Assembly (NCBI RefSeq): GCF_009674685.1
Contig: NZ_WKJI01000002.1
Coordinates: forward strand, 372,001 to 436,000
Length of the DNA stretch: 64,000 bases
Source: Pedobacter puniceum
Lineage (GTDB): Bacteria; Bacteroidota; Bacteroidia; Sphingobacteriales; Sphingobacteriaceae
Direction: 5' to 3'
Positions 1 through 46,067 of the stretch are shown here, one piece after another. The position numbers were made by a program, and so were the translations under genes. The notes beneath the pieces are model-generated. The model ran no database searches. It worked only from the letters and a program-made list of their open reading frames with translations, and was not told the DNA's origin. Within the stretch, counting starts at the first letter, position 1. Every line of letters begins with the position of its first letter.

Positions 1-2685
1 TTAGACCATTTGGTAAACTACGGAGGGTGTAACTCGGGTGCTTTATACTTAATGGAAAATGGTTTATTAACCCTACAAAGTTCTTATGGCTTAGAAGAAA
101 GGATGTTGCAGCCAGTAAAATCTGGTGAAGGGATGCTTGGACAAGTTTATGCCAATGGAAAAGAGAAGTTATTCTCCCCTATTCCGGATGATAATTATAC
201 AGTTTCCTTCGCAAACGGAAAAGTTAAAATAAGCAATATTCTAATAGTGCCTATCTTATATGATGGTAAAGCCATTGGTGTAATAGAATTGGGCTGCTGC
301 CATAGTTTTAATGAAGTTGAGATAGAATTTTTTAAAGATGCTACCAAGAATTTAGGTGTAGCCATAGCTGCAGCTGCAACACGTAAGCATGTACAAAGGC
401 TTTTAGAAGAAACACAGGCGCAATCAGAAGAAATGCAAGCGCAGCATACAGAATTAGAAAACTTAAATGCCGAACTAGAAGCGCAAACTCAGAAATTACA
501 AGCATCAGAAGAAGAGCTTAAAGTACAACAAGAAGAGTTGATGCAATCTAATTTAGAACTTGAAGAACGTTCTAAATTATTGGAAGAAAAAAACCAACTT
601 ATTGTAGAAAGAAATATAGAAATACAACAAAAAGCCGAAGAACTTGCTTTAAGCACCAAATACAAATCAGAGTTTTTGGCAAATATGTCTCATGAACTAC
701 GTACGCCTTTAAACTCTATCTTATTACTATCTAGATTATTAGCAGAAAACAACGAGCAAAACTTAAATGAAGAACAAATAGAATCTGCAAAAGTAATTCT
801 TAGCTCTGGCTCTGGATTGTTAACGCTGATTGATGAAATTCTAGACCTTTCTAAGATTGAGGCCGGAAAAATGGATTTAGATTTCCAACAGACGGATATA
901 CCTGAACTTGTTAATGATTTACAAGCTCTTTTCAATCCTTTAGTTAAAGAAAAAAATATTGGTCTACATATCGATTATAACAAAACCTGCCCGAAGTTTA
1001 TGATTACGGATAAATTACGCTTAGATCAGATATTAAAAAACCTGATTTCTAATGCCATAAAATTTACCAAGCAGGGCAAGGTAAGCCTCATCATCCAAAG
1101 CCATCCACAAAAGAAAGATTTCATACAATTTATAGTAGAAGATACGGGTATCGGGATATCAGAAGACAAACAGAAATTGGTTTTTGAAACTTTCCAACAA
1201 GCAGATGGTTCTACCAAAAGAAAATTTGGCGGCACCGGTTTAGGCTTATCTATCAGTAGAGAACTAGCAAGATTACTAGGTGGTAAAATTCTTTTGACCA
1301 GTAAAGAAGGTGTAGGAAGTAAATTTACTTTAGAAATCCCTTTAGATAGTAGTTTAGTTAAACCAAAGGAAGCAAAACCAACCTCTATAAAGAACTCAAA
1401 TATACCAGAAACTTTAGAAGAAACTTTATTCTCATCTACAGAGAGTATGTTTGTTACCCATAAAATACCCGATGATGTTGAAGATGACAGGCAAAATATT
1501 AACCCTGGAGATAAAGTTATTTTAATTGTTGAGGATGACACCGCTTTTGCCACCTTGCTATTAAAATATACCCGTAAACAGCAATATAAAGGCATTGTGA
1601 TAGTACGGGGAGATTTAGCAGTTGAGTTTGCCGAGAAATATCAGCCTTTAGCTATTTTATTAGATATACAGCTCCCTATTAAGGATGGCTGGATGGTTAT
1701 GGAAGAGTTAAAATCTAATCCTAAAACAAAACCTATTCCGGTACATATTATGTCTTCTTTAGAAGTTAAAAAGGAAAGTTTACTTAAAGGTGCTATAGAT
1801 TTTATAAATAAACCAGTTGCACTAGAGCATATGGATATGATGTTTAAAAAAATTGAAGATGCACTACACAGACATCCTAAAAAAGTACTTATTATAGAAG
1901 AAAACCCTAAGCATGCAACCGCCTTATCTTATTTCTTAAGTAGTTTTGATATCGTTACAGAAATTAAAAACAGTGTAGAAGATAGTGTAGAAGCCCTAAC
2001 TTCAGATAAGGTTGATTGCATTATTTTAGATATGGGTGTACCAGACCAAACCGGTTATGAAGCTTTAGAAGCCATAAAGAAGAATGAAGGCTTAGAAAAT
2101 TTACCTATCATCATTTTTACGGGCAAAAATTTATCCAAAGCAGAAGAAATCAGGATTAAGCAATATGCAGACTCTATAGTGATTAAAACAGTGCATTCTT
2201 ACCAAAGAATTTTAGATGAAGTAGGCTTATTTCTACACCTGGTAGAAGAAAAGAAAACCGATGTTGTAAAAAAGAAGATAAACACTTTAGGAACTTTAAA
2301 CGAAGTACTAAAAGGTAAAACTGTTCTTATTGCTGATGATGATGTACGTAACATATTCTCGCTAACAAAAGCATTAGAAAAGCATCAAATGAAGGTTATC
2401 TCTGCTACCGATGGAAAAGATGCTTTAGAACAGTTAGAACAACATCCTGAAATTTCTATCGTATTAATGGATATGATGATGCCAGAAATGGATGGCTATG
2501 AGACTACTTCCAGAATTAGAAAACATCCAAAATTTAAGAATTTACCTATTATGGCTGTAACCGCCAAAGCAATGATGGGCGACCGCGAAAAGTGTATTGT
2601 AGCAGGCGCATCTGATTATATATCAAAACCTGTTGATATAGACCAGTTACTATCTCTGCTAAGGGTATGGTTATACCAATATTAA
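1..2685 (+). CDS. Hybrid sensor histidine kinase, GAF-HisKA-HATPase with three receiver domains (5' partial)
   Basis: The reading frame is open from the first base, so the N-terminus lies outside the window and the first in-frame TTG at 10 is not a real start. Counting residues from base 10: a GAF-like sensor to about 125, a Gln/Glu-rich coiled coil to about 215, the HisKA box FLANMSHELRTPLN with the phospho-accepting His near 228, and an ATPase with N box (NLISNAIKFT), G1 (DTGIGI) and G2 (GGTGLGLSIS). Three receivers follow near 500, 623 and 769, each keeping an acidic pocket and a phosphorylatable Asp (LLDIQLP, ILDMGVP, LMDMMMP). No membrane segment is visible, so it looks cytosolic. It heads a run of genes with receivers, CheR and CheB, which suggests one phosphorelay. 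The signal is unknown. Confidence 0.93.
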   Translation, partial: LDHLVNYGGCNSGALYLMENGLLTLQSSYGLEERMLQPVKSGEGMLGQVYANGKEKLFSPIPDDNYTVSFANGKVKISNILIVPILYDGKAIGVIELGCCHSFNEVEIEFFKDATKNLGVAIAAAATRKHVQRLLEETQAQSEEMQAQHTELENLNAELEAQTQKLQASEEELKVQQEELMQSNLELEERSKLLEEKNQLIVERNIEIQQKAEELALSTKYKSEFLANMSHELRTPLNSILLLSRLLAENNEQNLNEEQIESAKVILSSGSGLLTLIDEILDLSKIEAGKMDLDFQQTDIPELVNDLQALFNPLVKEKNIGLHIDYNKTCPKFMITDKLRLDQILKNLISNAIKFTKQGKVSLIIQSHPQKKDFIQFIVEDTGIGISEDKQKLVFETFQQADGSTKRKFGGTGLGLSISRELARLLGGKILLTSKEGVGSKFTLEIPLDSSLVKPKEAKPTSIKNSNIPETLEETLFSSTESMFVTHKIPDDVEDDRQNINPGDKVILIVEDDTAFATLLLKYTRKQQYKGIVIVRGDLAVEFAEKYQPLAILLDIQLPIKDGWMVMEELKSNPKTKPIPVHIMSSLEVKKESLLKGAIDFINKPVALEHMDMMFKKIEDALHRHPKKVLIIEENPKHATALSYFLSSFDIVTEIKNSVEDSVEALTSDKVDCIILDMGVPDQTGYEALEAIKKNEGLENLPIIIFTGKNLSKAEEIRIKQYADSIVIKTVHSYQRILDEVGLFLHLVEEKKTDVVKKKINTLGTLNEVLKGKTVLIADDDVRNIFSLTKALEKHQMKVISATDGKDALEQLEQHPEISIVLMDMMMPEMDGYETTSRIRKHPKFKNLPIMAVTAKAMMGDREKCIVAGASDYISKPVDIDQLLSLLRVWLYQY

Positions 2686-2709
2686 AAATATATAACATGG
2701 AGAGAATTT

Positions 2710-3093
2710 ATGACAAAAAACACCCTTATTCTGATTATAGACGATGATAACAGGAATATCTTCGCTTTAAAGATGGTTCTTAAATCAAAAGGTTTTGATT
2801 GTATAGCCGCCAACAGCGTAACAGAAGGGATTAAGCTTTTAGAACAGTATCCAGAAACAACATTAGTTTTAATGGATATGATGATGCCCGAGATAGACGG
2901 TTATGAAGGCATAAGCGTCATTAAGGATCATGAAAAAACAAAAAAAACGCCTGTTATAGCAGTTACGGCACAAGCTATGCTAGGAGATAAAGAGAAATGT
3001 TTAGCCGCAGGTGCAGCAGATTACATCTCCAAACCTATTGATATTGATAAGTTATTACATAGCATTGCTAAAGTTTTAAATGATAGAACCTGA
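2710..3093 (+). CDS. Stand-alone CheY-like response regulator
   Basis: 127 residues that are only a receiver domain: acidic pair IDDD near residue 10, phospho-Asp in LMDMMMPEIDGYE, the Thr of AVTAQA and the Lys of SKPIDID. There is no output domain, so it acts by protein contact or as a phosphate shuttle. It closely resembles the third receiver of the upstream kinase (both have MDMMMPE-DGYE and a DYISKP-DID ending), which suggests duplication within the cluster. It starts 24 bp after the kinase stop, behind a GGAGAG that may act as ribosome binding site, and its end overlaps the next start by 14 bp. Confidence 0.9.
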   Translation: MTKNTLILIIDDDNRNIFALKMVLKSKGFDCIAANSVTEGIKLLEQYPETTLVLMDMMMPEIDGYEGISVIKDHEKTKKTPVIAVTAQAMLGDKEKCLAAGAADYISKPIDIDKLLHSIAKVLNDRT

Positions 3094-3937
3094 TTTGATA
3101 AAAGATGAAGAACTGGAAAGCCTGCTTACAGAAATTGCAGAGCTTTATGGTTATGATTTTACTCAATACAGCAAAGCTTCTATTAAAAGGAGGGTAAACC
3201 GCATTTGCCTGATAGATAAATTTACCAGCTTTGCTGAATTGAGATATCAGCTTATTAAACAGCATTCTTACTTACAGAGGTTTATAGAAGAAATTACGGT
3301 TAATGTAACCGAAATGTTTAGAGACCCCTCTTTTTATAAAGCTTTAAGAGAACAAGTTTTACCGCAACTAGGTACTTACCCATTGATTAGAATTTGGCTA
3401 GCAGGTTGCTCTACCGGAGAAGAAGTTTACTCGGTAGCCATTTTAGCCAAAGAAGCCGGACTTATGCATAAAATTTTGCTTTATGCAACAGATATTAACC
3501 CAAGTGTTCTAGAGAAGGCTAGAAACGGTATTTTCCCTATTAGCCAAATGAAATTATATTCAGAAAATTATATCCTTTCTGGAGGGCAACGTAATTTTTC
3601 TGAATATTATGCTGCAAACTATGATTTTGCTCGCTTTAACGATGATTTAAAAGAAAAAATGATTTTTGCTACGCATAATCTGGTATCAGACCGCTCTTTT
3701 AATGAATTTCAGCTTATTATTTGCAGAAACGTTTTAATTTATTTTGATAAAGATTTACAAGCTAAAGTATTTAAGCTTTTTGATGATAGTTTAGAACATC
3801 TGGGTTTTTTGGGCTTAGGCTCTAAAGAAACCATCAGGTTCTCTAAACTTGATAAGCACTATCATCAAATATCTACAGAAAAAATATGGCGTAAGCAAAA
3901 AGAAGAACAAAGAAGATTTAAAACTGATTTTACCTAG
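3080..3937 (+). CDS. cheR: CheR-family protein-glutamate O-methyltransferase
   Basis: 285 residues matching the CheR fold: an N-terminal helical domain (about 1-75) and a SAM-dependent methyltransferase domain with the SAM-binding stretch AGCSTGEEVYSVAI near residue 110, the acidic strand ATDINPSVL, and the conserved IICRNVLIYFD near 215. CheR methylates glutamates of chemoreceptors, but no receptor gene is visible here. With the stand-alone CheB that follows it may modify an unlinked receptor or act in the phosphorelay. The ATG lies inside the preceding receiver gene, implying coupled translation. Confidence 0.9.
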   Translation: MIEPDLIKDEELESLLTEIAELYGYDFTQYSKASIKRRVNRICLIDKFTSFAELRYQLIKQHSYLQRFIEEITVNVTEMFRDPSFYKALREQVLPQLGTYPLIRIWLAGCSTGEEVYSVAILAKEAGLMHKILLYATDINPSVLEKARNGIFPISQMKLYSENYILSGGQRNFSEYYAANYDFARFNDDLKEKMIFATHNLVSDRSFNEFQLIICRNVLIYFDKDLQAKVFKLFDDSLEHLGFLGLGSKETIRFSKLDKHYHQISTEKIWRKQKEEQRRFKTDFT

Positions 3938-3939
3938 CT

Positions 3940-4503
3940 ATGGAAACTATCTTTATCATAGGTGGTTCTGCAGGGAGCTTAAAAGTATTATTAGAGGTAT
4001 TACCGCAACTTCATCATCATTTAAAATTCCCTATTATTATTGTTCTACATAGAAAAGGTTATGCAGATTCTCAATTGAGTTTTTTATTAAGCACTAAAAC
4101 AAACTTAAAAGTGGTTGAACCTGATGATAAAGATATTTTAGAACCTGGCTATATTTATATTGCCCCGCCAGATTATCATTTACTTATAGAAAGTGATAAA
4201 ACCATTTCTTTAGATTTTTCTGAAAAGCTAAACTTCTCTAGACCATCAATAGATGTAACTTTTAGCTCGGCAGCAAAAGTGTTTAAAGAAAATACCTTTG
4301 CAATACTATTATCTGGTGCAAATGCCGATGGTGTAGCAGGGTTAAACCATGTTAAAGCCAACAATGGAACAACACTTGTACAAAACCCTGTAACTGCAGA
4401 GGTTAATTATATGCCTTTACAGGCTATCACACAATCAAAAATTGATTTTGTCTTAAATCCGGATGAGATTGCTGCATTTATAAACAAGCTTGATGTACCA
4501 TAA
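3940..4503 (+). CDS. cheB: CheB-type methylesterase catalytic domain without receiver
   Basis: 187 residues covering only the catalytic half of CheB, which removes methyl groups from, or deamidates, receptor side chains. The catalytic triad is readable: Ser10 in IIGGSAGS, His37 in VLHRKG and Asp130 in LSGANADG. The receiver domain that normally gates CheB is missing, so regulation must come from a separate receiver; two are encoded on either side. It starts 2 bp after the cheR stop. Confidence 0.88.
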   Translation: METIFIIGGSAGSLKVLLEVLPQLHHHLKFPIIIVLHRKGYADSQLSFLLSTKTNLKVVEPDDKDILEPGYIYIAPPDYHLLIESDKTISLDFSEKLNFSRPSIDVTFSSAAKVFKENTFAILLSGANADGVAGLNHVKANNGTTLVQNPVTAEVNYMPLQAITQSKIDFVLNPDEIAAFINKLDVP

Positions 4504-7426: not shown

Positions 7427-7457
7427 CAAAAAAGGAGGCTAAAAGCCTCCTTTTTTG
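7427..7457. terminator. Bidirectional rho-independent terminator
   Basis: Perfect 14-bp stem, 7427-7440 with 7444-7457, and a 3-nt loop; GGAGGCT core flanked by six A and six T, so it works in both directions between the small exported protein gene and the convergent esterase gene. Confidence 0.93.
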
Positions 7458-7476
7458 TTATCAGTATAATACTATT

Positions 7477-8391
7477 TTACATCACATTCTTTATAAAAGA
7501 AACTATTTCATCTATTTTTTCTTCGCCTATTAATTTATATAAAGCGTGGCCTTTGTCTTTTAAAATGATAAGCTGAGATTTATTAGATTTTATACCTTTC
7601 ATCCTATCGTTTATAGCATAAGCGTAAGCTACATTAATGATGTCATCTTTATCTCCATGATAGGTTAAAAGTGGTGGAGCGTCTTTTTTAATCACTGATG
7701 CATTTTCTAAACCTCCCCACAAATTAATAACCGCTTTAATAGGTATAATTTTTTGCTTTGAAACGTAAGCAAGGTGCAGAGCTGTCATAGATCCGGCAGA
7801 ACCCCCAGAAACAACAAGTTTATTGATATCTAAATTGTACTTAATAGCGTTTTCTTTCACCCAAGTTAATGCCATGGCAGCATCTTGCGATGCATTGTTA
7901 ATTGCAGTTTGAAGTAACGGATGAAACTGCCCGTTTTTAGGTAAGCCTTCAGCCATATTAGCAGAACAACTAGAACCCGGAGCTTTTTTATATTTTAATG
8001 TTAAGCGATAATTGATAGACACAACCGCAAAACCTTTATTAACCATTTTTGTACATATATCTTTTACATTTTTATCGCCACCGGTAAAACCGCCACCATG
8101 TATAAAAAAGAAAATAGGATAACTAATTTTATCAGCTTTACTTTTTGGAAGATATAAATCTAAAATACGATCGGAGGTAGAACTATCAATAGAATCTGGT
8201 ATAGGACCGTATCTTAAGTTTTGATAGATAGTAAAGCCACTATTAGTTTCTAGCAAATTATTAGCGGGTGGTGTGTAAGCCACTTTAGAAGTACTTTGGG
8301 CAAATGCTATTATGCTGTAAAGTTTTATAAAAAAGATAATAGCAATTACTAAAGAATTTTTAAGTATAGTTGTACTTCTGCTTTTTTTCAT
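7477..8391 (-). CDS. Secreted alpha/beta-hydrolase, carboxylesterase/lipase type
   Basis: 304 residues with an N-terminal signal sequence (hydrophobic stretch about 12-31 ending AFAQ). The mature part is an alpha/beta hydrolase of the esterase/lipase (HSL-like) group: oxyanion motif HGGGF near 96, nucleophile in GGSAGS near 193, acid in HGDKDD near 246 and His in KGHALY near 281. Substrate unknown; the fold covers acetyl-xylan and other small esters. It lies downstream of the M61 peptidase gene but a terminator separates them, so it is probably transcribed alone. Confidence 0.87.
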   Translation of the reverse strand: MKKSRSTTILKNSLVIAIIFFIKLYSIIAFAQSTSKVAYTPPANNLLETNSGFTIYQNLRYGPIPDSIDSSTSDRILDLYLPKSKADKISYPIFFFIHGGGFTGGDKNVKDICTKMVNKGFAVVSINYRLTLKYKKAPGSSCSANMAEGLPKNGQFHPLLQTAINNASQDAAMALTWVKENAIKYNLDINKLVVSGGSAGSMTALHLAYVSKQKIIPIKAVINLWGGLENASVIKKDAPPLLTYHGDKDDIINVAYAYAINDRMKGIKSNKSQLIILKDKGHALYKLIGEEKIDEIVSFIKNVM

Positions 8392-21951: not shown

Positions 21952-24456
21952 ATGAGCGCAAAACAGAAAAAAAACATCATAATTATTGGCAATGGAATGG
22001 TTGGATATAAGTTTTGCGAGAAAATTATTGCCAAATCTGATGACTTTAACCTTATAGTATTTGGTGAAGAACCCAGAAGAGCCTACGATAGGGTTCATTT
22101 AAGTGAATATTTTAACGGAAAAACCGCTGAAGACCTCAGCATGTCTCCAGCAAATTGGTATCAAGAAAACCACATAACCTTACATTTAGCAGATCCTATT
22201 TTAGAAATCAACAGACAAAATAAAACCGTTCATTCTCAAAAAGGCATTTTACAACCTTATGATTACCTCGTTCTAGCAACAGGCTCTTCTGCTTTTGTAC
22301 CTAACATCCCTGGTGTAGAAAAAGAAGGTGTTTTTGTATATCGCACCATAGAAGACCTAGAACTGATGAAAAACTACGCTTTAAAAGCTAAAAAAGGTGC
22401 TGTTATGGGAGGCGGTTTACTGGGTTTAGAAGCAGCAAAAGCACTGCTAGATTTAGGTATTGCAGAAACCCATGTGATAGAATTTGCTCCACGCTTAATG
22501 CCTAGGCAAATTGATAGTGCAGGAAGTAAACTTCTTCAAAATAAACTTCAAGAATTAGGGCTCCAAATACATCTTAATAAAAGTACCAGCGAAATTGTTG
22601 GTAATGGTAAAATAGAAGCCCTAGCTTTTAATGACGATACGCAACTTGAGTTAGATATGTTGGTTATTTCTGCCGGTATAAGACCAAGAGATGAACTTGC
22701 AAAACTAGCAGGCTTAGAAGTTGGCACCAGAGGCGGAATTTTAGTTAACGAGAAACTACAAACCAGTGACCCTAACATTTTCGCTATTGGCGAATGTGCT
22801 TTATACAAAGACATGATTTACGGCTTAGTAGCCCCAGGATATGAGATGGCCGAAGTTGTTGCTGCAAATATTTGTCAGCAAGAAAAGTATTTCTATGGCT
22901 TTGATATGAGCACCAAACTTAAATTGATAGGTGTTGATGTAGCCAGTTTTGGCGATGCCTTTGTTACTGAGCCTGAAGGTAGAACCATTGTTTTCGAGGA
23001 CACTCATAAAGGTATTTATAAGCGAATTAATATCACTAATGATGGAAAATATCTTCTTGGCGGTATTCTTATTGGCGATGCTGATGCCTATAACATCTTA
23101 TTACAAACGGTTAACAACAAAATTGTTTTACCACCAAACCCAGAAGATTTAATACTGGGTAGCCGTGGCGGAGAAACTGATGGTGGTGCTGGGGTTATGA
23201 GCTTGCCAGACGATGCTTTAATTTGCTCTTGCGAAGCTGTTACAAAAGGCATGATTTGCAGTGCCGTTAGCGATGGCACAGCAAGTTCTATAGACGATAT
23301 AAAAAAATGTACCAAAGCAGGTACCGGCTGCGGTGGTTGCGTTCCTTTAGTTAAAGATTTAATTACCGGAACCATGCAAGAAAATGGCGTTTACATCAAA
23401 AACGTTATTTGCGAACATTTTGATTATTCTAGACAAGAACTGCTAGATCTTATCAAAATCAATAAAATTAAAGATTATGATACCGCTTTAGACCATTTTG
23501 GTAAAGGTGATGGATGCGAGGTTTGCAAACCAGCTATCGCCAATATTTTGGCTGGTATTTGGAATGATTTAATCCTTAAACAAGACACCATACAAGATAG
23601 TAACGATAGATTTTTGGCTAATATCCAAAAAGGAGGAACTTATTCTGTGGTACCTAGAATTCCGGGCGGAGAAATTACTCCAGAAAAACTTATCGTGATT
23701 GGGCAAGTAGCCAAAAAATATAACCTCTACACTAAAATAACAGGAGGGCAAAGAATAGATTTATTTGGCGCCCACTTGAGTGATTTACCCGCTATTTGGG
23801 AAGAACTTATTGATGCTGGCTTTGAAAGCGGCCATGCTTATGGCAAATCTTTAAGAACCGTAAAAAGCTGCGTAGGAAGCACCTGGTGTCGTTTCGGCCT
23901 ACAAGACAGCGTAAGTTTTGCTATAGAAGTAGAAGACAGATACAAAGGCTTACGCTCGCCACACAAACTTAAAGGTGGTGTATCTGGCTGTATAAGAGAA
24001 TGTGCCGAAGCGCAATCTAAAGACTTTGGTATCATCGCTACAGAAAAAGGCTATAACTTATATGTATGTGGTAACGGAGGCTCTAAACCTCAGCATGCTT
24101 TATTGCTTGCCGCAGATATCGATAAAGAAACCTGCATCAAATACTTAGATAGATTTTTAATGTTTTATGTAAGAACTGCCGACCCGTTAACCAGAACAGC
24201 AACTTGGCTAAACAAGATGGAAGGCGGCATTACCTATCTCAAGAATGTAATCATAAACGATAGTTTAGGCATTGCCGAAGAACTTGAAGCTGCTATGCAT
24301 TACCATGTTGATACCTATAAATGCGAATGGAAAGCAGCCATAGAAAATCCAGAGATGAGAAAAAGATTTGCACACTTTGTAAATGCCCCAGAAGAAAAAG
24401 ACCCAACCGTAAAATTTGCCCCTATGCGTGAACAAATTAAAGCAGAGGCTTGGTAA
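21952..24456 (+). CDS. nirB: Assimilatory nitrite reductase, large subunit
   Basis: 834 residues, full NirB length. Order: FAD site (GNGMVG, 13-18), NAD(P)H site (GGGLLGLEA near 150), a BFD-like [2Fe-2S] site with Cys425, 427, 460 and 463, a second BFD-like segment, then two Nir/Sir ferredoxin-like halves and the siroheme/[4Fe-4S] ligands Cys640, 646, 680 and 684 (CX5C and CX3C). It reduces nitrite to ammonium with NAD(P)H, six electrons, in the cytoplasm with NirD. The start ATG follows the FNR-like site. First gene of a probable nirB-nirD-moaCB-moeA operon. Confidence 0.96.
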   Translation: MSAKQKKNIIIIGNGMVGYKFCEKIIAKSDDFNLIVFGEEPRRAYDRVHLSEYFNGKTAEDLSMSPANWYQENHITLHLADPILEINRQNKTVHSQKGILQPYDYLVLATGSSAFVPNIPGVEKEGVFVYRTIEDLELMKNYALKAKKGAVMGGGLLGLEAAKALLDLGIAETHVIEFAPRLMPRQIDSAGSKLLQNKLQELGLQIHLNKSTSEIVGNGKIEALAFNDDTQLELDMLVISAGIRPRDELAKLAGLEVGTRGGILVNEKLQTSDPNIFAIGECALYKDMIYGLVAPGYEMAEVVAANICQQEKYFYGFDMSTKLKLIGVDVASFGDAFVTEPEGRTIVFEDTHKGIYKRINITNDGKYLLGGILIGDADAYNILLQTVNNKIVLPPNPEDLILGSRGGETDGGAGVMSLPDDALICSCEAVTKGMICSAVSDGTASSIDDIKKCTKAGTGCGGCVPLVKDLITGTMQENGVYIKNVICEHFDYSRQELLDLIKINKIKDYDTALDHFGKGDGCEVCKPAIANILAGIWNDLILKQDTIQDSNDRFLANIQKGGTYSVVPRIPGGEITPEKLIVIGQVAKKYNLYTKITGGQRIDLFGAHLSDLPAIWEELIDAGFESGHAYGKSLRTVKSCVGSTWCRFGLQDSVSFAIEVEDRYKGLRSPHKLKGGVSGCIRECAEAQSKDFGIIATEKGYNLYVCGNGGSKPQHALLLAADIDKETCIKYLDRFLMFYVRTADPLTRTATWLNKMEGGITYLKNVIINDSLGIAEELEAAMHYHVDTYKCEWKAAIENPEMRKRFAHFVNAPEEKDPTVKFAPMREQIKAEAW

Positions 24457-27059: not shown

Positions 27060-27752
27060 TTAAATAATAATATTAGTTAAAGCCGCTAATTTAGACCTAT
27101 CACTAATGATAATATCCTTTCCTTCCAGACGTAATATTTTATGATCTACTAATTCATTTATAGTTCTGAAAACAGTTTCATAAGTAGCTCCTGCGTAAGA
27201 AGCTAAATCTTGTCTGGTTAAACTGATATTTAAGCCTCCATTTGGTGTACTTCCAAATTGTTCTTCCAAATTAAATAGGGCTTGCGCTACCCTACCTTTT
27301 ACAGACATGTGGGCCAAATTCCTCATTTTACGTTCAGATTCCTGCAATTCATCAGCAAAGAACAACAACAGTTGGTAAGTAAACTCATTATTTACCTTTA
27401 ATGTAGCATTAAAAAATTCTAAGCCAATAAAACATACTGTTGAAGCTTCTAATGCCGTTGCTGATATAGGATATACCGAGCTTTTACTCCCCAAACCTCT
27501 GTGCCCTATAACAGCTCCTTTATTTGCAAACCTTACAATAAGTTCTTTATCACCCCATTTTTTATGCACTTTAACTATTCCATCAAAAACAAAATAGACA
27601 CCTGTTACTTTTTCTCCCTCTTCAATAATTCTTTCGCCTTTTTTTACTTGAAATGTTCTTCTGTGAGCATGAATAGCCGGATGCCACTCCTTTAAACACA
27701 TTTTACACATAAAACAAGTCTGTAAATCACATTCTACTTTACTTTTTTTCAT
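27060..27752 (-). CDS. FNR-like Crp-family regulator with four N-terminal cysteines
   Basis: 230 residues from the ATG at 27752; an upstream in-frame TTG at 27773 is less likely. Cys8, 13, 16 and 19 form CX4CX2CX2C at the N-terminus, followed by a cyclic-nucleotide-type beta roll (about 30-115) and a helix-turn-helix (LTRQDLASYAGATYETVFR, about 173-191). The recognition helix keeps the E-T-x-x-R pattern that reads TGA half-sites in Crp and FNR. Cys107 (STVCFI) falls where the fourth FNR ligand lies. A redox- or oxygen-sensing iron-sulfur regulator of this nitrate island is the likely role; metal binding is inferred. Confidence 0.85.
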   Translation of the reverse strand: MKKSKVECDLQTCFMCKMCLKEWHPAIHAHRRTFQVKKGERIIEEGEKVTGVYFVFDGIVKVHKKWGDKELIVRFANKGAVIGHRGLGSKSSVYPISATALEASTVCFIGLEFFNATLKVNNEFTYQLLLFFADELQESERKMRNLAHMSVKGRVAQALFNLEEQFGSTPNGGLNISLTRQDLASYAGATYETVFRTINELVDHKILRLEGKDIIISDRSKLAALTNIII

Positions 27753-27881
27753 TTTTATTTCGTTTCTAAGCAAATAAAATAAGCTTTTTGTGGTTTTTTA
27801 ACATATTATATTGAAAATACCATAAAATAATTCTTAAAAAGCATATTTTAAAACCTCTAATATGAATTAAACACTAAAAAC

Positions 27882-33249: not shown

Positions 33250-34557
33250 ATGATAAAATCAAGCGAAAAACCACTAGAAAAACTCAACTTATTTAGTATA
33301 AAAGGCATACAAATGAGAACATTTCATATTACATGGCTCATGTTTTTCGTTTGTTTCTTCGGATGGTTTGGTTTAGCTCCTTTAATGCCAACCATAAGAA
33401 CAGAGCTTGGTTTAAGCAAAGCCCAAGTTGGCAACCTTATTATAGCCTCTGTAGCCTCTACCATCATAGCCCGGTTAGTAATAGGAAGGCTATGTGATGT
33501 TATAGGGCCACGTAAAGCGGCAATTTGGTTATTATGCTTGGGTTCTTTACCTGTGTTTTTAGTTGGTTTGGCCGATTCTTATGAGACTTTCTTACTGTTT
33601 AGGCTAGCAATAGGCTTTATAGGAGCATCTTTCGTGATTACACAATACCATACTTCTATGATGTTTGCTCCAAAAATTAAAGGAACCGCTAACGCAATAA
33701 CCGGAGGATGGGGAAATTTAGGCGGTGGTGTTACCAATATGGTAATGCCCTTAATTTTTGCTGCTATTGTAGGCTTTGGCTATACTGATGCTCAAGCCTG
33801 GAGGTACGCCATGATTGTACCAGGATTAATGATGCTTGTAGCCGCCTTTTTATATTGGAAATATACTAAAGATACTCCTGCAGGAAATTTTGACGAGATT
33901 AACAAAGAGAAATCAGCCGCAGTTAAAACAGATTGGTCTATTTTGGCAGATTGGCGAGTTTGGGCTTTAACTTTAGCATACGCCATGTGCTTTGGTATGG
34001 AAATAACCTTTGACAACATAGCCGCTCTTCATTTTGTAGACTCTTTTGGGCTATCGCAAAGTAGTGCCGGCTTTTGGGCTGGTGTATTCGGTTTCATGAA
34101 TATTTTCGCCAGAGCGATGGGCGGCATCGTATCAGACAAAACCGGATTAAAATACGGTTTAAAAGGTAAAGGTATTTTACTAGCTATAATGTTGTTGTTA
34201 GAAGGTTTTGGCTTAGTATTATTTGCTTTATCAGGCTCGTTTGTATTAGCCATTGTTTCTATGTTAACCTTCGCATTATTTTTAAAAATGGCTAATGGTG
34301 CTACTTATGGCATTGTGCCTTTTGTTAATGAAAAAAATGTAGGGATGGTAAGCGGTATTGTTGGTGCCGGCGGGAATTTAGGAGGCATGGCCTTTGGTTT
34401 CTTGTTTAAAGTAGAATCAATCAGCTATGTTCAAGCATTTCAATATATAGGCTACATCATCATTCTCGTTTCCATCATTATCCTCATTACCAAATTCTCT
34501 ACAGAGAAAACACAAGCTGTTGATACTAAAGACTTATCCTTAAAACCATTGAAATAA
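33250..34557 (+). CDS. narK: Nitrate/nitrite transporter, NarK/NasA MFS type
   Basis: 435 residues with twelve predicted membrane helices after a roughly 30-residue cytoplasmic N-terminus. Both nitrate signature motifs of the NNP family are present: GGWGNLGGGVT near 153 and VGAGGNLGGMAFG near 375, with the substrate Arg in LFRLAIGFIG near 120. It imports nitrate by proton symport or exchanges nitrate for nitrite. It is the second nitrate uptake route of the island and sits 8 bp before the nitrate reductase gene. Confidence 0.94.
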   Translation: MIKSSEKPLEKLNLFSIKGIQMRTFHITWLMFFVCFFGWFGLAPLMPTIRTELGLSKAQVGNLIIASVASTIIARLVIGRLCDVIGPRKAAIWLLCLGSLPVFLVGLADSYETFLLFRLAIGFIGASFVITQYHTSMMFAPKIKGTANAITGGWGNLGGGVTNMVMPLIFAAIVGFGYTDAQAWRYAMIVPGLMMLVAAFLYWKYTKDTPAGNFDEINKEKSAAVKTDWSILADWRVWALTLAYAMCFGMEITFDNIAALHFVDSFGLSQSSAGFWAGVFGFMNIFARAMGGIVSDKTGLKYGLKGKGILLAIMLLLEGFGLVLFALSGSFVLAIVSMLTFALFLKMANGATYGIVPFVNEKNVGMVSGIVGAGGNLGGMAFGFLFKVESISYVQAFQYIGYIIILVSIIILITKFSTEKTQAVDTKDLSLKPLK

Positions 34558-34565
34558 TTGAAATT

Positions 34566-37500
34566 ATGCCGCAAACAAAAAAAATAGCAGAACAACTTAC
34601 TTCTACCTGCAGCTATTGCGGAGTTGGTTGCGGTGTGCTTATCCAAAAGGAAAAAAACGGAAATATTTTTGTTGAAGGAGATAAGAATCACCCTTCTAGC
34701 AAAGGAATGCTTTGCAGCAAAGGTCTTAACTTGCACCATACTGTTAACGATAAAAGCGATAGATTACTGTATCCGCAAATGCGCTACAATAAAAGCATGC
34801 CCTTACAAAGAGTAAGCTGGGATGATGCTTTAGAACGTAGCGCTGCTGTTTTTAAAACTTTTATAGAAAAATACGGCCCAAATTCGGTTGCTTTCTATGC
34901 ATCGGGGCAGTGTTTAACAGAAGAATACTATGTCATTAATAAGCTTATAAAAGGCTTTATAGGCAGTAATAATATAGATACCAATTCTAGATTATGCATG
35001 AGTAGTGCTGTTGTAGGCTACAAAATGTCTATCGGCGAAGATAGCGTACCTATTTGCTATGATGATATAGAACTGGCAGATTGTTTTTATGTTACAGGTG
35101 CTAACCCAGCATGGTGTCATCCTATCATTTGGAGAAGGGTTGAAGCTCATAAAGCTGCCAACCCGGATGTTAAAATCATTATTGTTGATCCGCGTGTAAC
35201 CGATACTTGTGCCATAGCAGATTTACATTTGCAGTTAAACCCTGGCACAGATATTACCCTTAACCATGCTATTGGCCGGCTTCTTATAGAGCAAGGTTAT
35301 ATTGACATCAATTTTATTCAACAACATGCAGAAGGTTATGAAGCTTACAAAGCCGTAGTTTTTGAAAAAAGTTTAGAAGAAGCGGCTCATATTTGCGGCT
35401 TGAACCCCAATGATATTAGACTTGCCGCACAATATATTGGTGAAGCAAAAGGCTTTATCAGTATGTGGACCATGGGGCTTAACCAAAGTGCTATTGGCAC
35501 CAACAAGAACTTAAGTTTGATTAACCTCAACTTAATTACTGGACAAATTGGCAAACCTGGAGCTGGTCCGTTTTCATTAACTGGCCAACCCAACGCCATG
35601 GGCGGCAGAGAAGTTGGAGGCTTATCAAACCTTCTACCTGCCCACCGCAACTTAAACAACCCACTACACCGCCAAGAAGTACAAGCATTTTGGGGTGGAA
35701 AAGAAATACAAGAAAAGCCTGGTTTAACGGCAACAGAAATGTTTGAAGCCTTAGAAACAGGGCAATTAAAAGCTATCTGGATACTGTGTACCAACCCATT
35801 AACCAGCTTACCCAATACCAGACAAGCCGAAGCCGCTTTGAAAAAAGCAAAATTTGTAGTGGTACAAGAAATCAGTAATAAACCAGAAACTTTAGCTTAC
35901 GCTGATGTTGTTTTACCCGCAGCAGCCTGGGCAGAGAAAGAAGGTACCATGACAAATTCTGAGCGGAGAATTACATACTTACATAAAGCTGTAGATGCAC
36001 CCGGAGAAGCCTTGCCTGATGCTGAAATCATCTGCAAATTTGCTCAAAAAATGGGCTATAATAGCTTCAGCTATAACAATGTAGAAGAGATATTTATAGA
36101 ACATACCAAACTCACCAAAGGCACTAACATAGATATTTTTGGCTTAAACTACACTATTTTAAAAGAGCATAGAAGTATTCAATGGCCTTATAAAAAGCAT
36201 AAACAAAACGGCACTAAGCGACTCTTTGAGGATAAAAAGTTTTATACACCATCACAAAAAGCCATCTTACATGCCGTACCAGATACTTTAACTAGCGAAA
36301 AACCAAATCCCGATTTTCCTTTTATTTTAACCACTGGCCGTATTAGAGACCAATGGCATACGAGAAGTAAAACAGGTAAAGTAAATAAGCTAAATCAACA
36401 TATTAAACAAGCTTATTTAGAAATTCATGTTCAGGATGCAGAGCAATTAGAACTGAAAGAAGATGATATCGCCATCATAACTTCTGCCCGCGGAGAAGTA
36501 AGAGCAAAAGTTAAAATTGGTAATACCATAAAACCTGGTGTTGTTTTCTTGCCTATGCATTGGGGCAAAATCCTTGGAAATGATTTAAACCGAGCAAATA
36601 ATATCACCAATGATTTGCTAGACCCAATTTCTAAAGAGCCAGATTTTAAATATTGTGCTGTTAAGGTTGCCAAATATCAAAAACCAGAACAAAAGATAGT
36701 TATTATTGGTGCCGGGGCAGGTGCTTTTGGCTTTGTAAAGGCTTATAGAGAAATTAACCAAGAAGATGCCATAACTATTTTTAGTAAAGAAAATTTTCCT
36801 TTTTATAATAGGGTTATGCTACCAGACTATATCAGTGGTGAACAAGGCTGGGAGCAATTGGTTAAGATGACAGATGAAGAAGAACCTGATTATAAAATTA
36901 GGCTTCACCGTGGTGTAAGTGTAGAAAAAATAGACCGAGAGCAAAAATTAGTGATAGATAATTTGGGCAGAAAAACCCCTTACGATATCCTCATCATGGC
37001 AACAGGAAGCCGGGCATCAGTACCTAAAAACTTACCAAATTTAAAGGGCATCTTTACCATGAGAAGCCGTACAGATGCTGATAACTTTAAAAATCATATC
37101 CCTAAAAACGCCCATGTTGCTATTTATGGCGGTGGATTGCTAGGTTTAGAAATGGCCGCTTCTTTAAGAGAGATAGGTGTTAAAGTTACCATCATCCAAA
37201 GAAGTTCTAGGTTTATGGGTAGGCAGCTAGATGCTTTGGGCAGTCAGCTTTTACATGAGGAAATGGTAGACCTAGGTTGCGATATCTATTATGATGATGA
37301 AGTACAATTGTATTACGGAAGATCTAAACTTACCGCCATTGGTTTAAAAAGTGGTAGAAAAATAAACTGCGATGCTATCATTTTAGCTATTGGTACTACA
37401 CCCAATATAGAACTGGCTAAAGCAAGCGACTTAAACTGCAAAAAAGGTGTTGTGGTTAATGATTATCTACAAACAAATGACCCTGCCATTTATGCTATTG

Positions 37501-38087
37501 GTGAAATTGCCGAGTTTAACGGCAGTTTATACGGCATTACCGCTGCCGCAGAACAACAAGCTACCGTTGTTGCCAATTATTTAAACGGAGATATTGCTAG
37601 CTATTATAGCGGAAGCACCAGCATGAACTTGATAAAAATTCATGGTTTTGATTTATGCAGTATTGGTTTACCAGAATGCCCAGACGAAACTTACGAAGAA
37701 ATAGTTTTTATCGATAAAGCTAAGCGATACTATAAGAAATGCATTATTAAACAAGATAAACTGGTTGGCGCTATCCTTATTGGAGATAAAACTGAGTTTC
37801 TAGAATTTAAAGAGCTTATTGCTAATAAAATAGAACTGAGCGAAAAGAGGATGCAACTGCTTAGAAGCGGTAAAAAAGCAGAGGCAGTTAAAGGTAAATT
37901 GGTTTGTAGCTGTAATAATGTTGGTAAAGGTAATTTAGAAGAAAAAATAGCTATGGGCTGTACAGATTTGAACGCCTTATGTACTGCCACAGGTGCAGGC
38001 CAAGGTTGTGGCTCTTGCAAAGCAGAAGTTAAAAAAATCCTCGATGAAGCATCCCGAAAAGAGGAAGTAGCTTTAAATCTAATCTAA
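34566..38087 (+). CDS. nasA: Single-chain NAD(P)H-dependent assimilatory nitrate reductase (NasA-NasC-type fusion)
   Basis: 1173 residues. N-terminal molybdenum half: [4Fe-4S] ligands Cys15, 18, 22 and 50, the Mo ligand Cys144 in SRLCMSSAV, bis-MGD domains, and the dinucleotide-binding C-domain from TTGRIRDQWHTRSKTG near 583. From about 709 an FAD/NAD module follows (IVIIGAGAGAFG; GGGLLGLEMAAS), and from about 1108 a BFD-like [2Fe-2S] site (CSCNN ... GCGSC). Thus nitrate reduction to nitrite, and entry of NAD(P)H electrons, sit on one chain. In Klebsiella these are separate NasA and NasC proteins. Cytoplasmic, with no Tat signal. It precedes the rubredoxin fusion gene by 5 bp. Confidence 0.94.
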   Translation: MPQTKKIAEQLTSTCSYCGVGCGVLIQKEKNGNIFVEGDKNHPSSKGMLCSKGLNLHHTVNDKSDRLLYPQMRYNKSMPLQRVSWDDALERSAAVFKTFIEKYGPNSVAFYASGQCLTEEYYVINKLIKGFIGSNNIDTNSRLCMSSAVVGYKMSIGEDSVPICYDDIELADCFYVTGANPAWCHPIIWRRVEAHKAANPDVKIIIVDPRVTDTCAIADLHLQLNPGTDITLNHAIGRLLIEQGYIDINFIQQHAEGYEAYKAVVFEKSLEEAAHICGLNPNDIRLAAQYIGEAKGFISMWTMGLNQSAIGTNKNLSLINLNLITGQIGKPGAGPFSLTGQPNAMGGREVGGLSNLLPAHRNLNNPLHRQEVQAFWGGKEIQEKPGLTATEMFEALETGQLKAIWILCTNPLTSLPNTRQAEAALKKAKFVVVQEISNKPETLAYADVVLPAAAWAEKEGTMTNSERRITYLHKAVDAPGEALPDAEIICKFAQKMGYNSFSYNNVEEIFIEHTKLTKGTNIDIFGLNYTILKEHRSIQWPYKKHKQNGTKRLFEDKKFYTPSQKAILHAVPDTLTSEKPNPDFPFILTTGRIRDQWHTRSKTGKVNKLNQHIKQAYLEIHVQDAEQLELKEDDIAIITSARGEVRAKVKIGNTIKPGVVFLPMHWGKILGNDLNRANNITNDLLDPISKEPDFKYCAVKVAKYQKPEQKIVIIGAGAGAFGFVKAYREINQEDAITIFSKENFPFYNRVMLPDYISGEQGWEQLVKMTDEEEPDYKIRLHRGVSVEKIDREQKLVIDNLGRKTPYDILIMATGSRASVPKNLPNLKGIFTMRSRTDADNFKNHIPKNAHVAIYGGGLLGLEMAASLREIGVKVTIIQRSSRFMGRQLDALGSQLLHEEMVDLGCDIYYDDEVQLYYGRSKLTAIGLKSGRKINCDAIILAIGTTPNIELAKASDLNCKKGVVVNDYLQTNDPAIYAIGEIAEFNGSLYGITAAAEQQATVVANYLNGDIASYYSGSTSMNLIKIHGFDLCSIGLPECPDETYEEIVFIDKAKRYYKKCIIKQDKLVGAILIGDKTEFLEFKELIANKIELSEKRMQLLRSGKKAEAVKGKLVCSCNNVGKGNLEEKIAMGCTDLNALCTATGAGQGCGSCKAEVKKILDEASRKEEVALNLI

Positions 38088-38092
38088 TTTCT

Positions 38093-39550
38093 ATGGAAGA
38101 GCATATCGTCAAAATAAACTTACCAGGTGGCATTGTTTCTACCGGAGATTTACATGAAATATTAACCATTGCAGAACAGTGCAATGTTGAGAATATAAGA
38201 ATTGGTAACCGCCAACAAATTTTATTTAAAATTGCAGAAACTGCACTGGAAGACCTAAAAGATAGGTTTATGGTTCATGATATCCCTTATGAAATAGACC
38301 AAGATGAGTTTCCTAATATTGTAAGTTCTTACGTTACAGAAGAAATTTTCCAAACATCTTTATGGTTAACAGAAGGTGTTTATAAAGACATATTAGATGG
38401 GTTCAATCATCAGCCTAAGCTTAAAATTAATATTGTAGATTATTACCAAAATTTAATTCCCTTTTTTACGGGCAACCTTAATTTTATAGCCTCTGAAACC
38501 AATAATTTCTGGTATTTGTACATCAGATTTCCTAAAACCAACAATATGTTTTGTTGGCCTTCTCTTATTTATTCTGAAGATATTGCTGCTTTAAGCTTGG
38601 TTCTAGAAGATTATATCCATCAAGATTTTAGTAAGCAAGAAGTAAATATTAACGGAGAAGATATTTACACTCAGGTTCTTAAGAACCATAATTTTCATCA
38701 GCAGGAGATTCAAAAACCTTTAATCCATACAGATTTTCAATTGCCCTATTATGAAGGTTTAAATAAATATAGCGAGAATAAACTTTGGCTAGGTATTTAC
38801 AGAAGACATGAAGAATATAGCATCAAATTTTTAAAAGCTGTTTGCGAAATTTGTAAGTCGACAAGGATAGGACAACTCTATACAACAAGTTGGAAATCCA
38901 TAGTTATCAAGAATATCAATATAAAAGACAGAACTTATTGGAGTAGTTTATTAGATAAATTTAGAATTAATATTAGACATGCTGCAAACGAGTTAAATTG
39001 GCAAGTAGAAGACTTATGCGAGGAAGCTTTAAAGCTAAAAATAGAACTGGTTAAACAATTTGAAGAAGCCGATTTAAGAACCTATCGTTTATGTTTTGCC
39101 ATAAAAACCAAGCCTAAAACAGGCTTATTTAGTGCTATCGTCATCAGAAAGAGAAATAGTAGAAATAGTAAAGGAGAAGAATTATATGAGCTTTTGTATA
39201 CCCGAAACTTCAATCCAAATTCAAAAGAATATATCACTTTTCATGATGGTGTTACCTTAGAGCAACTGGCTCCCAAATTGATAGAAATATGCAACCTTTA
39301 CTATCACCTCAGAGAAAATACGGGTAAGAGCTCAGAAATAGAAAAAGAACAACCTAAGCAGGTACAAAAACACAGCGTATACCAATGTAAAAACTGTTTA
39401 ACCATTTACGATGAACGTTATGGAGACCCTACACAAGAAATAGCTCCAAAAACAAGTTTTAACAGTTTAGATTCCTATTTTTGCCCTGTTTGTGATGCTC
39501 CAAAACAAGATTTTGCTGAAATTCACCTAACAAAACAGCAATTTGTATGA
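38093..39550 (+). CDS. Nir/Sir ferredoxin-like half-domain protein fused to rubredoxin
   Basis: 485 residues. The N-terminus (KINLPGGIVSTGDL ... RIGNRQQILFKI) aligns by eye with the Nir/Sir half-domain of the NirB in this window (VPRIPGGEITPEKL ... GGQRIDLFGA), and a second similar half spans about 215-290. The siroheme and [4Fe-4S] ligands CX5C and CX3C are absent; the nearest is CX2C at 251/254. The C-terminus is a full rubredoxin: Cys432, 435, 464 and 467, with YDERYGDP and CPVCDAPKQDF. A one-electron carrier docking on nitrate or nitrite reductase is plausible. It is cotranscribed with the nitrate reductase and overlaps the next gene by 4 bp. Confidence 0.85.
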   Translation: MEEHIVKINLPGGIVSTGDLHEILTIAEQCNVENIRIGNRQQILFKIAETALEDLKDRFMVHDIPYEIDQDEFPNIVSSYVTEEIFQTSLWLTEGVYKDILDGFNHQPKLKINIVDYYQNLIPFFTGNLNFIASETNNFWYLYIRFPKTNNMFCWPSLIYSEDIAALSLVLEDYIHQDFSKQEVNINGEDIYTQVLKNHNFHQQEIQKPLIHTDFQLPYYEGLNKYSENKLWLGIYRRHEEYSIKFLKAVCEICKSTRIGQLYTTSWKSIVIKNINIKDRTYWSSLLDKFRINIRHAANELNWQVEDLCEEALKLKIELVKQFEEADLRTYRLCFAIKTKPKTGLFSAIVIRKRNSRNSKGEELYELLYTRNFNPNSKEYITFHDGVTLEQLAPKLIEICNLYYHLRENTGKSSEIEKEQPKQVQKHSVYQCKNCLTIYDERYGDPTQEIAPKTSFNSLDSYFCPVCDAPKQDFAEIHLTKQQFV

Positions 39551-40281
39551 GTGTAGAAACCTTATTGTTATTAGCTTTATTTTCAGTTGGATTTTTATAC
39601 GCATCTGTTGGGCATGGTGGTGCTAGTGGCTATTTGGCTGTACTGTCTATTTTCTCTATTCCGCTAGCTCAATATAAAACCATGGTGCTTTTACTTAATA
39701 TTATAGTAGCAGGAGTAGGTTTTATTCAGTTTTACAAAGTAGGATTTTTTAAATGGCATTTATGCTGGCCTTTCTTGCTAAGCTCTATTCCTTTTGCATT
39801 TTTAGGCTCAAAAGTCGTCTTAGACACAAAAGTCTATCATATACTTTTAGGCGCAGCTTTAATATTTCCTGTCATCAGGTTATTAGGTTTTAGTGGCCAA
39901 GAAAAACACATAAAAAAAGCTATTCCTTTGGTAAAAGCTTTAATTTGGGGAGCATTATTAGGCTTAATATCGGGTGTTTTAAACATAGGTGGTGGTATAT
40001 TTTTAAGTCCGTTGCTTATTTTAACGGGCTGGGCAAATAGTAAAGAATCGGCATCGGTTTCAACCTTATTTATTGTTTGCAACTCTATGGCAGGGCTTTT
40101 GGGTTACACACAAGCTTTAGAAATACAAGATTCATCGGTATGGCTTTGGTTTTTTTCGGCTTTAGCCGGAGGATTTGCAGGCGCATACGTTGGTAGTCGA
40201 TACTTTAAAATTTCTACCATCAGATATTTATTAACCGTGGTATTAGCGATTGCTTCTTTTAAACTTTTATTTTTGATGTAA
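39547..40281 (+). CDS. TauE/SafE-family membrane transporter
   Basis: 244 residues with about eight membrane helices and the duplicated family motifs GHGGASGYLAVLS near 23 and NIGGGIFLSPLLILTG near 147. The family exports or imports sulfite, sulfoacetate and other small anions. Its ATG overlaps the rubredoxin-fusion stop, and its stop overlaps the moaA start by one base, so it is fully embedded in the nitrate/Moco operon. Nitrite, molybdate-linked sulfur compounds or sulfite are possible substrates; none is shown. Confidence 0.85.
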   Translation: MSVETLLLLALFSVGFLYASVGHGGASGYLAVLSIFSIPLAQYKTMVLLLNIIVAGVGFIQFYKVGFFKWHLCWPFLLSSIPFAFLGSKVVLDTKVYHILLGAALIFPVIRLLGFSGQEKHIKKAIPLVKALIWGALLGLISGVLNIGGGIFLSPLLILTGWANSKESASVSTLFIVCNSMAGLLGYTQALEIQDSSVWLWFFSALAGGFAGAYVGSRYFKISTIRYLLTVVLAIASFKLLFLM

Positions 40282-45478: not shown

Positions 45479-46045
45479 TTAACAACATCCAGAACCAGGC
45501 TCGCAGCTGTTTCCTTCTTGCGTAACTAAGTTTTTTAATTGGATTTTTGGCTTTACAGCCGATGGTGCACAACATTCTTCTCCTGCTGGAGTGGTACCAC
45601 AACTTCCACCTCTTTCTATAGCTTTACATTGGGTAACATCGGGTCTTAAATCTATAATGAAATTCTCTTCATCTTTGATAAAAGCTTTTGGTAATAACTG
45701 TCTGGTATCATATTCTTGGTTACCAAATTCTACTTTTACAACCGCATCAGCCTCAATATTTAAAGATTTTTCTACCAATTCTATAATAGAAACAGCTTTT
45801 CTAACTTTCATAGATTTAAGCTGCTGCTGATTTTCTGGCTCCCAAAGCTGGATGATAATTTCTGTCCATTTGTTTACCACACCACCACAATCAACAGAAG
45901 TGATAGGTGCGTATTTTAATTCTGTAATATGATAAGAAGGCGAAACCCATTTGTCTTCAGCATATTGAAATTGTAAGTCTAACATCGGATTTGCTACCAG
46001 AGCAGTCCTAAACTCTTTCCAAGTCATCATTTCTGAAACATTCAT
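45479..46045 (-). CDS. DUF6428-like protein with Cys-rich C-terminus
   Basis: About 188 residues. The body (about 1-130) is an uncharacterised domain often found in ars operons of Bacteroidetes. The last 55 residues hold seven cysteines, including two CC pairs (EECC and the terminal GSGCC), which look like a site for As(III) or another soft metal. Start ATG 46045; an upstream TTG exists. An operator-like repeat overlaps its start codon. Function unknown; arsenic binding or transfer to Acr3 is inferred. Confidence 0.78.
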   Translation of the reverse strand: MNVSEMMTWKEFRTALVANPMLDLQFQYAEDKWVSPSYHITELKYAPITSVDCGGVVNKWTEIIIQLWEPENQQQLKSMKVRKAVSIIELVEKSLNIEADAVVKVEFGNQEYDTRQLLPKAFIKDEENFIIDLRPDVTQCKAIERGGSCGTTPAGEECCAPSAVKPKIQLKNLVTQEGNSCEPGSGCC

Positions 46046-46067
46046 ATATTGCAATTTAACGATTAAT
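46044..46067 (-). promoter_or_regulatory. Second ArsR operator-like repeat
   Basis: 24 bases identical at 22 positions to the repeat at 46416-46439. It lies in the 36-bp gap between arsR and the DUF6428-like gene and touches the start codon of the latter, so it may be an internal control point of the operon. Confidence 0.6.

Follow-up and report, generated by a model that had tools for sequence, protein, structure and literature searches.

The window, as the whole analysed stretch of 64,000 nucleotides from Pedobacter puniceum is called here, carries an extended nitrate assimilation cluster. The first part of this cluster comprises NirB, NirD, Moco genes, a Crp-type regulator, an outer-membrane protein and NrtABC-like genes, and the rest comprises NarK, NasA, the gene considered here, a TauE-like gene, MoaA, MoaE and MobA, with several of these gene labels assigned by eye. 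NirB (21952..24456, plus strand), the presumed siroheme nitrite reductase, has its CX5C and CX3C motifs intact. A NarK-type nitrate/nitrite transporter (33250..34557, plus strand) belongs to the same gene run as an assimilatory nitrate reductase of the NasA type (34566..38087, plus strand), a chain of 1173 amino acids in which a Mo domain, an FAD part and a BFD [2Fe-2S] part are fused. The open reading frame that follows (38093..39550, plus strand) encodes 485 amino acids and is termed RubNS, a cofactor-less protein of Nir/Sir fold with a rubredoxin at its C-terminus. By the ORF coordinates, RubNS begins 5 bp past the NasA stop codon and overlaps by 4 bp the next gene, a TauE/SafE-family member recognised by Pfam (39547..40281, plus strand), exactly where the preliminary description had placed it. 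The nirBD-side genes are separated from the nrt/nas-side genes by a Crp-family regulator on the minus strand (27060-27773; Pfam), which has four Cys within its first 26 residues and might bind a metal or cluster. Also encoded in the window is a DUF6428 protein with a Cys-rich tail (45479-46054, minus strand; Pfam E 7.3e-46), whose gene adjoins arsenate reductase-like and Acr3-type arsenite transporter-like genes identified by eye.

RubNS consists of a large core and a small C-terminal domain, joined by a linker of low model confidence (residues 415-426; 39335..39370) in which residues 413-416 and 420-425 have pLDDT values below 50 and the block means are 49 and 61. The C-terminal domain (residues 427-479; 39371..39529) is a rubredoxin by both Pfam and structure, as the preliminary description had recognised. 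The Pfam Rubredoxin model matches residues 430-474 (E 5.5e-13), and the four Cys (432, 435, 464 and 467) form two CX2C pairs with 28 residues between them in the window protein. Superposition of the modelled tail on a rubredoxin structure gives Z 9.5 and rmsd 1.2 over 51 residues. This full-spaced motif is present in 116 of the 126 RubNS-family ORFs from loci. Three of the ten ORFs without it (L114-L116) are partial loci whose longer stretches have the motif; the other seven are L124 and L125, with a shorter loop, L098, with a frameshift, the second copies L111-L113, and L123, from a genome without NasA. L124 (5993-7441, plus strand) and L125 (8469-9848, plus strand) keep four Cys, with CX2C pairs 8 and 15 residues apart, while the frameshift of L098 (8001-9457, plus strand) falls within the rubredoxin part and reflects either a sequencing error or a broken gene.

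A search of 38 genomes with PF00301 returned exactly one match in 29 genomes, always at the RubNS tail; the Pinibacter-type genomes, which lie outside this set, have two rubredoxin-bearing RubNS copies. Whatever the role of this rubredoxin, the 29 genomes in which it is the sole match do not draw it from a wider set of rubredoxins. No match was obtained in the other nine, five of which are genomes with a fused NasA that lack RubNS. The remaining four are G128, where the contig ends, G325, whose core has no rubredoxin, and G584 and G388, in which the tail retains four Cys but has a shortened loop. In two RefSeq plasmid records, a relative of RubNS is named simply 'rubredoxin', in one case beside a 'nitrate reductase'. 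Four of the plasmid records with matches are from Bacteroidota and one is from Paracoccus, the last matching at the rubredoxin part only. Among the papers listed from the open-licence PMC literature, a limited set that is not proof of absence from print, none was on a protein of the RubNS type.

The remainder of the chain, residues 1-414 (38093..39334), is the Nir/Sir-fold core, delimited by structure match, by profile alignment to CysI and by its lack of CX5C and CX3C. Pfam detects NIR_SIR_ferr in two stretches (E 6e-11), the better being residues 4-58 (38102..38266), a first half-domain that contains the Arg40-Gln41 pair invariant in alignment A1. This alignment is composed of the window protein and 79 of 80 named loci, L098 having been excluded for its frameshift, and both Pfam domains are present in 80/80 of its members. 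The named loci are the best 80 of 114 relatives in a scan of genome contigs, and the titles shown for them are those of what we take to be Bacteroidota genera. Sequence searches of the PDB returned no listed match to the core: the rows listed (best 60 of 62 by phmmer, best 60 of 69 by profile) ran through the rubredoxin part, with the lone exception of one RecA entry without a passing stretch, and a comparison of folds was needed for this reason.

An AlphaFold2 model of RubNS generated from A1 has a mean pLDDT of 86.8 and a pTM of 0.79, and the best 31 PDB rows that it returned with Foldseek are all siroheme nitrite or sulfite reductases. With a second structure aligner, the model matches SiRHP (4g39) at Z 27.9 and rmsd 3.2 Å over 388 residues and spinach nitrite reductase at Z 24.5 over 399 residues, with identities of 10-14% in the structural rows. 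Profile-profile comparison aligns residues 5-412 with residues 81-547 of Escherichia coli CysI (probability 86.6%, E 4.5e-6), on one template built from a seven-sequence NirA/CysI set. The relationship to Nir/Sir proteins that had been proposed from the sequence is thus backed by predicted fold and profile comparison alike, and the unrelated fold that would have spoken against it did not appear. The core is not the half-domain of the preliminary description, since residues 1-414 model as a complete two-half fold and the profile match extends over nearly their full length. The by-eye alignment to the NirB of the window, made in the same description, is weakly backed by the profile comparison (residues 3-147, probability 14.5%, E 0.0019).

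Despite the retention of this fold, the ligands of the siroheme/[4Fe-4S] centre have been lost, as had been noted at the outset. RubNS has neither CX5C nor CX3C, whereas the NirB of the window has both (Cys640/646 and Cys680/684), and the pair is found in the core of 0/80 A1 members. In the profile alignment, which is not a structural superposition, CysI Cys434 and Cys483 fall in gaps of RubNS and Cys479 falls on Lys340, while Cys440 aligns with Cys309, a position that is Cys in 52/83. In its core, RubNS seems to be a plain example of a protein that has retained an enzyme fold and discarded the catalytic centre.

RubNS is under purifying selection in both pairs measured, with dN 0.016/dS 0.139 (ratio ~0.12) against L031 and dN 0.055/dS 0.893 (ratio ~0.06) against L032, its nearest named relatives. 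Alignment A1 contains 51 invariant columns, which include the four rubredoxin Cys. In the core the invariant residues include Arg40, Gln41, Asn75, Lys111, Asn130 and Arg145, and further along Tyr220-Glu221-Gly222, Trp232-Leu233-Gly234, Cys254, Trp267, Lys273, His296, Glu300-Leu301-Asn302-Trp303 and Lys316; near the invariant Cys254, position 251 is Cys in 77/83. CysI Arg117, Gln118, Asn154 and Lys217, which we take to be residues of the anion/siroheme side, align in the profile comparison with Arg40, Gln41, Asn75 and Lys111, each identical in 83/83. Of the CysI residues that presumably make up the basic substrate site (Arg83, Arg153, Lys215 and Lys217), Arg83 aligns in the same comparison with position 7, Lys or Arg in 69/83, Arg153 falls on Pro74 and Lys215 falls on the variable position 109. 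It is not obvious why a mere scaffold would require such conservation, so the core probably binds something specific.

The distribution of RubNS is closely tied to that of NasA. In a family sample of 201 genomes, RubNS occurs in 64 and a fused NasA, taken as a match at E <= 1e-150, in 65, and all 64 are within the 65. The one NasA genome of the family without RubNS is G128, where NasA occupies positions 21-3188 (minus strand) at the very end of a contig, which leaves out the downstream place. In 62 of the 64 family pairs both genes are on one contig, always on the same strand with RubNS downstream, at gaps below 250 bp in 52 and of 578-865 bp in 10 (n=62), and the remaining two pairs are split over contigs. 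A phylum sample of 395 genomes contains RubNS (bits >300) in 29, a full fused NasA (Mo+FAD+BFD) in 33 and both in 28, such that RubNS is present in 28/33 genomes with a fused NasA versus 1/362 without. In 28/28 of the phylum pairs RubNS is again downstream on the same strand, with gaps of 18-973 bp (9-973 bp for both samples together), and RubNS is absent from the 13 phylum genomes that match the Mo domain of NasA alone. The tally of the phylum search was 123 genomes; among the matches listed, the rest were short matches to the rubredoxin region and were dropped. For each genome, scoring was limited to the best-ranked candidates (e.g. 4 or 2) of a permissive initial pass.

The named loci agree with these samples, in that the flavoprotein part of NasA is upstream on the same strand in 74/80, at gaps below 300 bp in 59 and of 401-1228 bp in 15 by our own choice of start codon. 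The six other loci are L091, L095 and L097, which begin within ~650 bp of a contig end, and L093, L101 and L102, which are second copies. Linkage to nasA, on whose conservation the preliminary description had made its case depend, is therefore strong in the family, phylum and named-locus samples, and the lack of linkage that would have counted against it did not materialise. In L081, the space between NasA and RubNS is occupied by an ORF (7447-7965, plus strand) of the nitrate-reductase-associated Pfam family Nitr_red_assoc (E 6.8e-54), and gaps of ~1 kb like that of L081 are also seen in L078-L080, L087, L089, L090, L094, L103, L105 and L106.

NirB is present in 76 family genomes, 11 of which have no NasA match at E <= 1e-150. 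RubNS was rejected as a partner of NirB alone, being found in 0/11 of these NirB-without-NasA genomes. Within the 33 phylum genomes that have a fused NasA, RubNS is present in 28/28 with NirB and 0/5 without, and 28/29 of the phylum genomes with RubNS have NirB. On the basis of these counts, RubNS follows NasA, within NirB-type pathways.

The five phylum genomes with a fused NasA that lack both RubNS and NirB (G416, G252, G210, G353 and G377; loci L118-L122) have a frame resembling NirA or sulfite reductase near NasA in 5/5 cases, that of G416 being truncated at the edge of the retrieved sequence. In a NasA tree of 39 rows from loci, which four of these five NasA proteins entered and from which that of G377 was left out, the four are set apart from the rest by one fully supported branch. 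Since these four sit behind a single branch, the co-occurrence reflects few independent events. L118-L122 represent an alternative cluster in which a fused NasA stands near a NirA-like protein. Several of these loci also hold a separate flavodoxin-type piece and a reductase piece, and by eye several of the chains open with short related segments of the pattern PF[TS]xEQxxxLxxF, as if they shared a docking tag. In L120, a globin (3787-4233, plus strand; Pfam E 1.2e-13) directly precedes NasA and recalls Bjgb, a globin that in Bradyrhizobium japonicum belongs to the NasC operon (PMC4724949). The lone phylum genome with RubNS and without NasA is G325, where the gene (L123; G325:C4:1-5000) lies at a contig start and lacks the rubredoxin. 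Searches of G325 gave no fused NasA at E <= 1e-100 and no NirB at E <= 1e-150, and system decay or an assembly gap is possible.

Second copies of RubNS are of two kinds. Three family genomes have copies composed of the core only (L111:6459-7724, minus strand; L112:17820-19067, plus strand; L113:2236-3483, minus strand), with no rubredoxin motif within 500 bp after the core in any frame. The two that were compared, L112 and L113, are ~33% identical to the main copy, and most core positions conserved at >=95% also hold in all three. Because such copies exist, the core may act without a rubredoxin of its own. In the core tree, L111-L113 fall together with L126, which comes from a different family (support 96/93). 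They stand behind a porin-like gene and, by eye, are clustered with a histidine kinase and a response regulator, which in L112 are a PilJ-type kinase and a LuxR-type regulator according to Pfam. Three Pinibacter-type genomes contain a second RubNS copy that does have the rubredoxin. Where sufficient sequence is available, in two of the three, this copy is not beside NasA; for L101 and L102 the 8 kb upstream contain no NasA, and the start of L093 is 331 bp away from a contig end. A dependence of RubNS in trans was considered for L093, L101 and L102 and rejected, as the same genomes have a normal NasA-adjacent copy.

The proposed partner of RubNS is the NirB-like flavoprotein part of NasA (residues 709-1166; 36690..38063, plus strand). 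Residues 711-1166 match positions 1-472 of the NirB model TIGR02374 (E 2.4e-97), and residues 709-1009 match the model of the rubredoxin reductase NorW (E 3.5e-52), both below the equivalog cut-off. The window NasA reaches no nitrate reductase cut-off in NCBIfam, where the top-ranking model, formate dehydrogenase alpha, likewise stays under its cut-off; it is named for its domains, for the company of NarK and NirBD and for the RefSeq label 'nitrate reductase' on the aligned gene in L134. In NirB itself, the FAD+BFD half feeds the Nir/Sir half. NasA and RubNS together hold the module set of NirB, because NasA brings FAD and BFD, and RubNS brings an emptied Nir/Sir module (plus the rubredoxin).

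Among the docking electron carrier, assembly factor and sensor suggested in the preliminary description, the data favour the docking electron carrier. In its full form, RubNS may be a dedicated accessory redox subunit of the NADH-type assimilatory NasA of Bacteroidota, in which the dead Nir/Sir module docks and the rubredoxin relays electrons, a tentative reading to which we assign a probability of roughly 0.4. On the simplest reading, the emptied module would give the NirB-like FAD+BFD part of NasA a place to dock, much as the Nir/Sir half of NirB does for the FAD+BFD half of the same chain. The flexibly linked rubredoxin would accept electrons from the NasA flavoprotein and pass them on, with the [4Fe-4S]/Mo part of NasA as the likeliest acceptor; NirB would be the alternative destination, keeping nitrate and nitrite reduction in step. 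The binding of RubNS to NasA, its reduction by the NasA FAD and the destination of its electrons are thus what we infer. Against a redox subunit, NasA, which has FAD, BFD and [4Fe-4S], seems to need nothing further to work as an NADH:nitrate reductase, five genomes with a fused NasA manage without RubNS, and the invariant Arg40, Asn75, Lys111, His296, Asn302, Trp303 and Lys316 exceed the needs of a plain docking surface. The broader proposal, that the NADH nitrate reductases of Bacteroidota depend on a docking subunit derived from a Nir/Sir protein by loss of cofactor and on its usually sole rubredoxin as a relay, is somewhat doubtful.

A role for RubNS in the maturation of NasA is the strongest rival because a chaperone would show the same linkage to NasA. 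The core would then hold the apo-enzyme or cofactor during Mo-bisMGD or cluster insertion, with the rubredoxin as redox or iron partner. This role would fit the near-strict dependence of RubNS on NasA, the invariant core residues, including Cys254, with its frequent companion Cys251, and the Moco genes that are sometimes nearby (MoaA in 12/80 loci, MobA in 17/80). It is nonetheless unlikely: RubNS matched no chaperone family (TorD/NarJ or FdhD) in Pfam or NCBIfam at E <= 1, and the Nir/Sir fold is, to our knowledge, not a chaperone fold. Nor does RubNS replace FdhD, a candidate role rejected for want of a complementary pattern, FdhD being found in 10/29 genomes with RubNS and 1/5 fused-NasA genomes without it.

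Less probable still is a scaffold that joins NasA and NirBD, through which nitrite and electrons would pass without a build-up of nitrite. The strict split of RubNS between NirB-bearing and NirB-less genomes with a fused NasA is what a scaffold would give, and the surviving anion/siroheme-side residues Arg40, Gln41, Asn75 and Lys111 are compatible with it. The NirB-less cases on the tree form a single NasA clade, however, and so maybe record one event, and two basic residues of the CysI site, Arg153 and Lys215, align with Pro74 and the variable position 109.

A sensor or regulator of nitrate, nitrite or redox state is very improbable; the core-only copies clustered with a histidine kinase and a response regulator in three genomes speak for it, but RubNS has no DNA-binding or signalling domain in Pfam or NCBIfam, its main copy tracks the enzyme gene itself and, among loci labelled by eye, L127 has the regulator pair near RubNS. 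Just as improbable is an enzyme whose core binds siroheme or some other ligand although the Cys set is gone, and which has the rubredoxin as donor, to which the active-site remnants and the second-half invariants His296, Asn302, Trp303 and Lys316 would be suited, but for which the CX5C/CX3C pair is missing throughout A1 and the nitrite step would fall to the NirB that nearly all RubNS genomes have.

Several known systems resemble that proposed for RubNS in part. With the siroheme reductases, such as E. coli SiRHP/CysI, plant NiR and Mycobacterium tuberculosis NirA, it shares the whole predicted double fold, but, unlike these nitrite and sulfite reductases, it has no CX5C/CX3C pair and has an added rubredoxin. 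NirB likewise contains a Nir/Sir module, weakly alignable to RubNS, and pairs it with FAD and BFD; RubNS differs in its double fold, its missing ligands and its lack of FAD and BFD, both of which reside on NasA. In flavorubredoxin NorV and the class III hybrid cluster protein, too, a rubredoxin is joined to a bigger redox protein from nitrogen metabolism, the partner being a flavo-diiron enzyme in NorV and a hybrid-cluster enzyme in the class III hybrid cluster protein, whereas the partner of the RubNS rubredoxin has no recognised cofactor site. The NorV model matches RubNS at the rubredoxin part only (residues 415-478), with no flavo-diiron core.

Dedicated redox partners of assimilatory nitrate reductases have precedents. 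The gene for Flp of B. japonicum, a redox partner, stands beside that for the assimilatory nitrate reductase, and the mutant is reported to be defective with nitrate though not with nitrite (PMC4724949). In the nas operon of Paracoccus denitrificans, the small redox protein NasG is reported to mediate the flow of electrons that links the NADH site with the reductases for nitrate and nitrite (PMC4724949). RubNS could meet the same need in Bacteroidota. Flp is a separate flavoprotein, whereas the window NasA already has such a part fused, and NasG is a ferredoxin, whereas RubNS presents a rubredoxin on a Nir/Sir pseudoenzyme. Neither a ferredoxin nor a Rieske [2Fe-2S] domain was detected in RubNS by Pfam at E <= 1.

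The textbook parts list of nitrate assimilation consists of a transporter, NasA, and NirBD or NirA. RubNS appears as a further part, present in 28/28 sampled Bacteroidota genomes that have both a fused NasA and NirB, and is probably a working part of nitrate assimilation in many nitrate-using members of this phylum. A Nir/Sir-family pseudoenzyme with a rubredoxin as the regular companion of the Bacteroidota NasA will probably surprise specialists. Its recognition makes testable whether it is needed for growth on nitrate as opposed to nitrite, and from where its rubredoxin receives electrons and to where it delivers them. If the reading of the rubredoxin as a relay is true, these bacteria would possess a rubredoxin-dependent system of nitrate assimilation.
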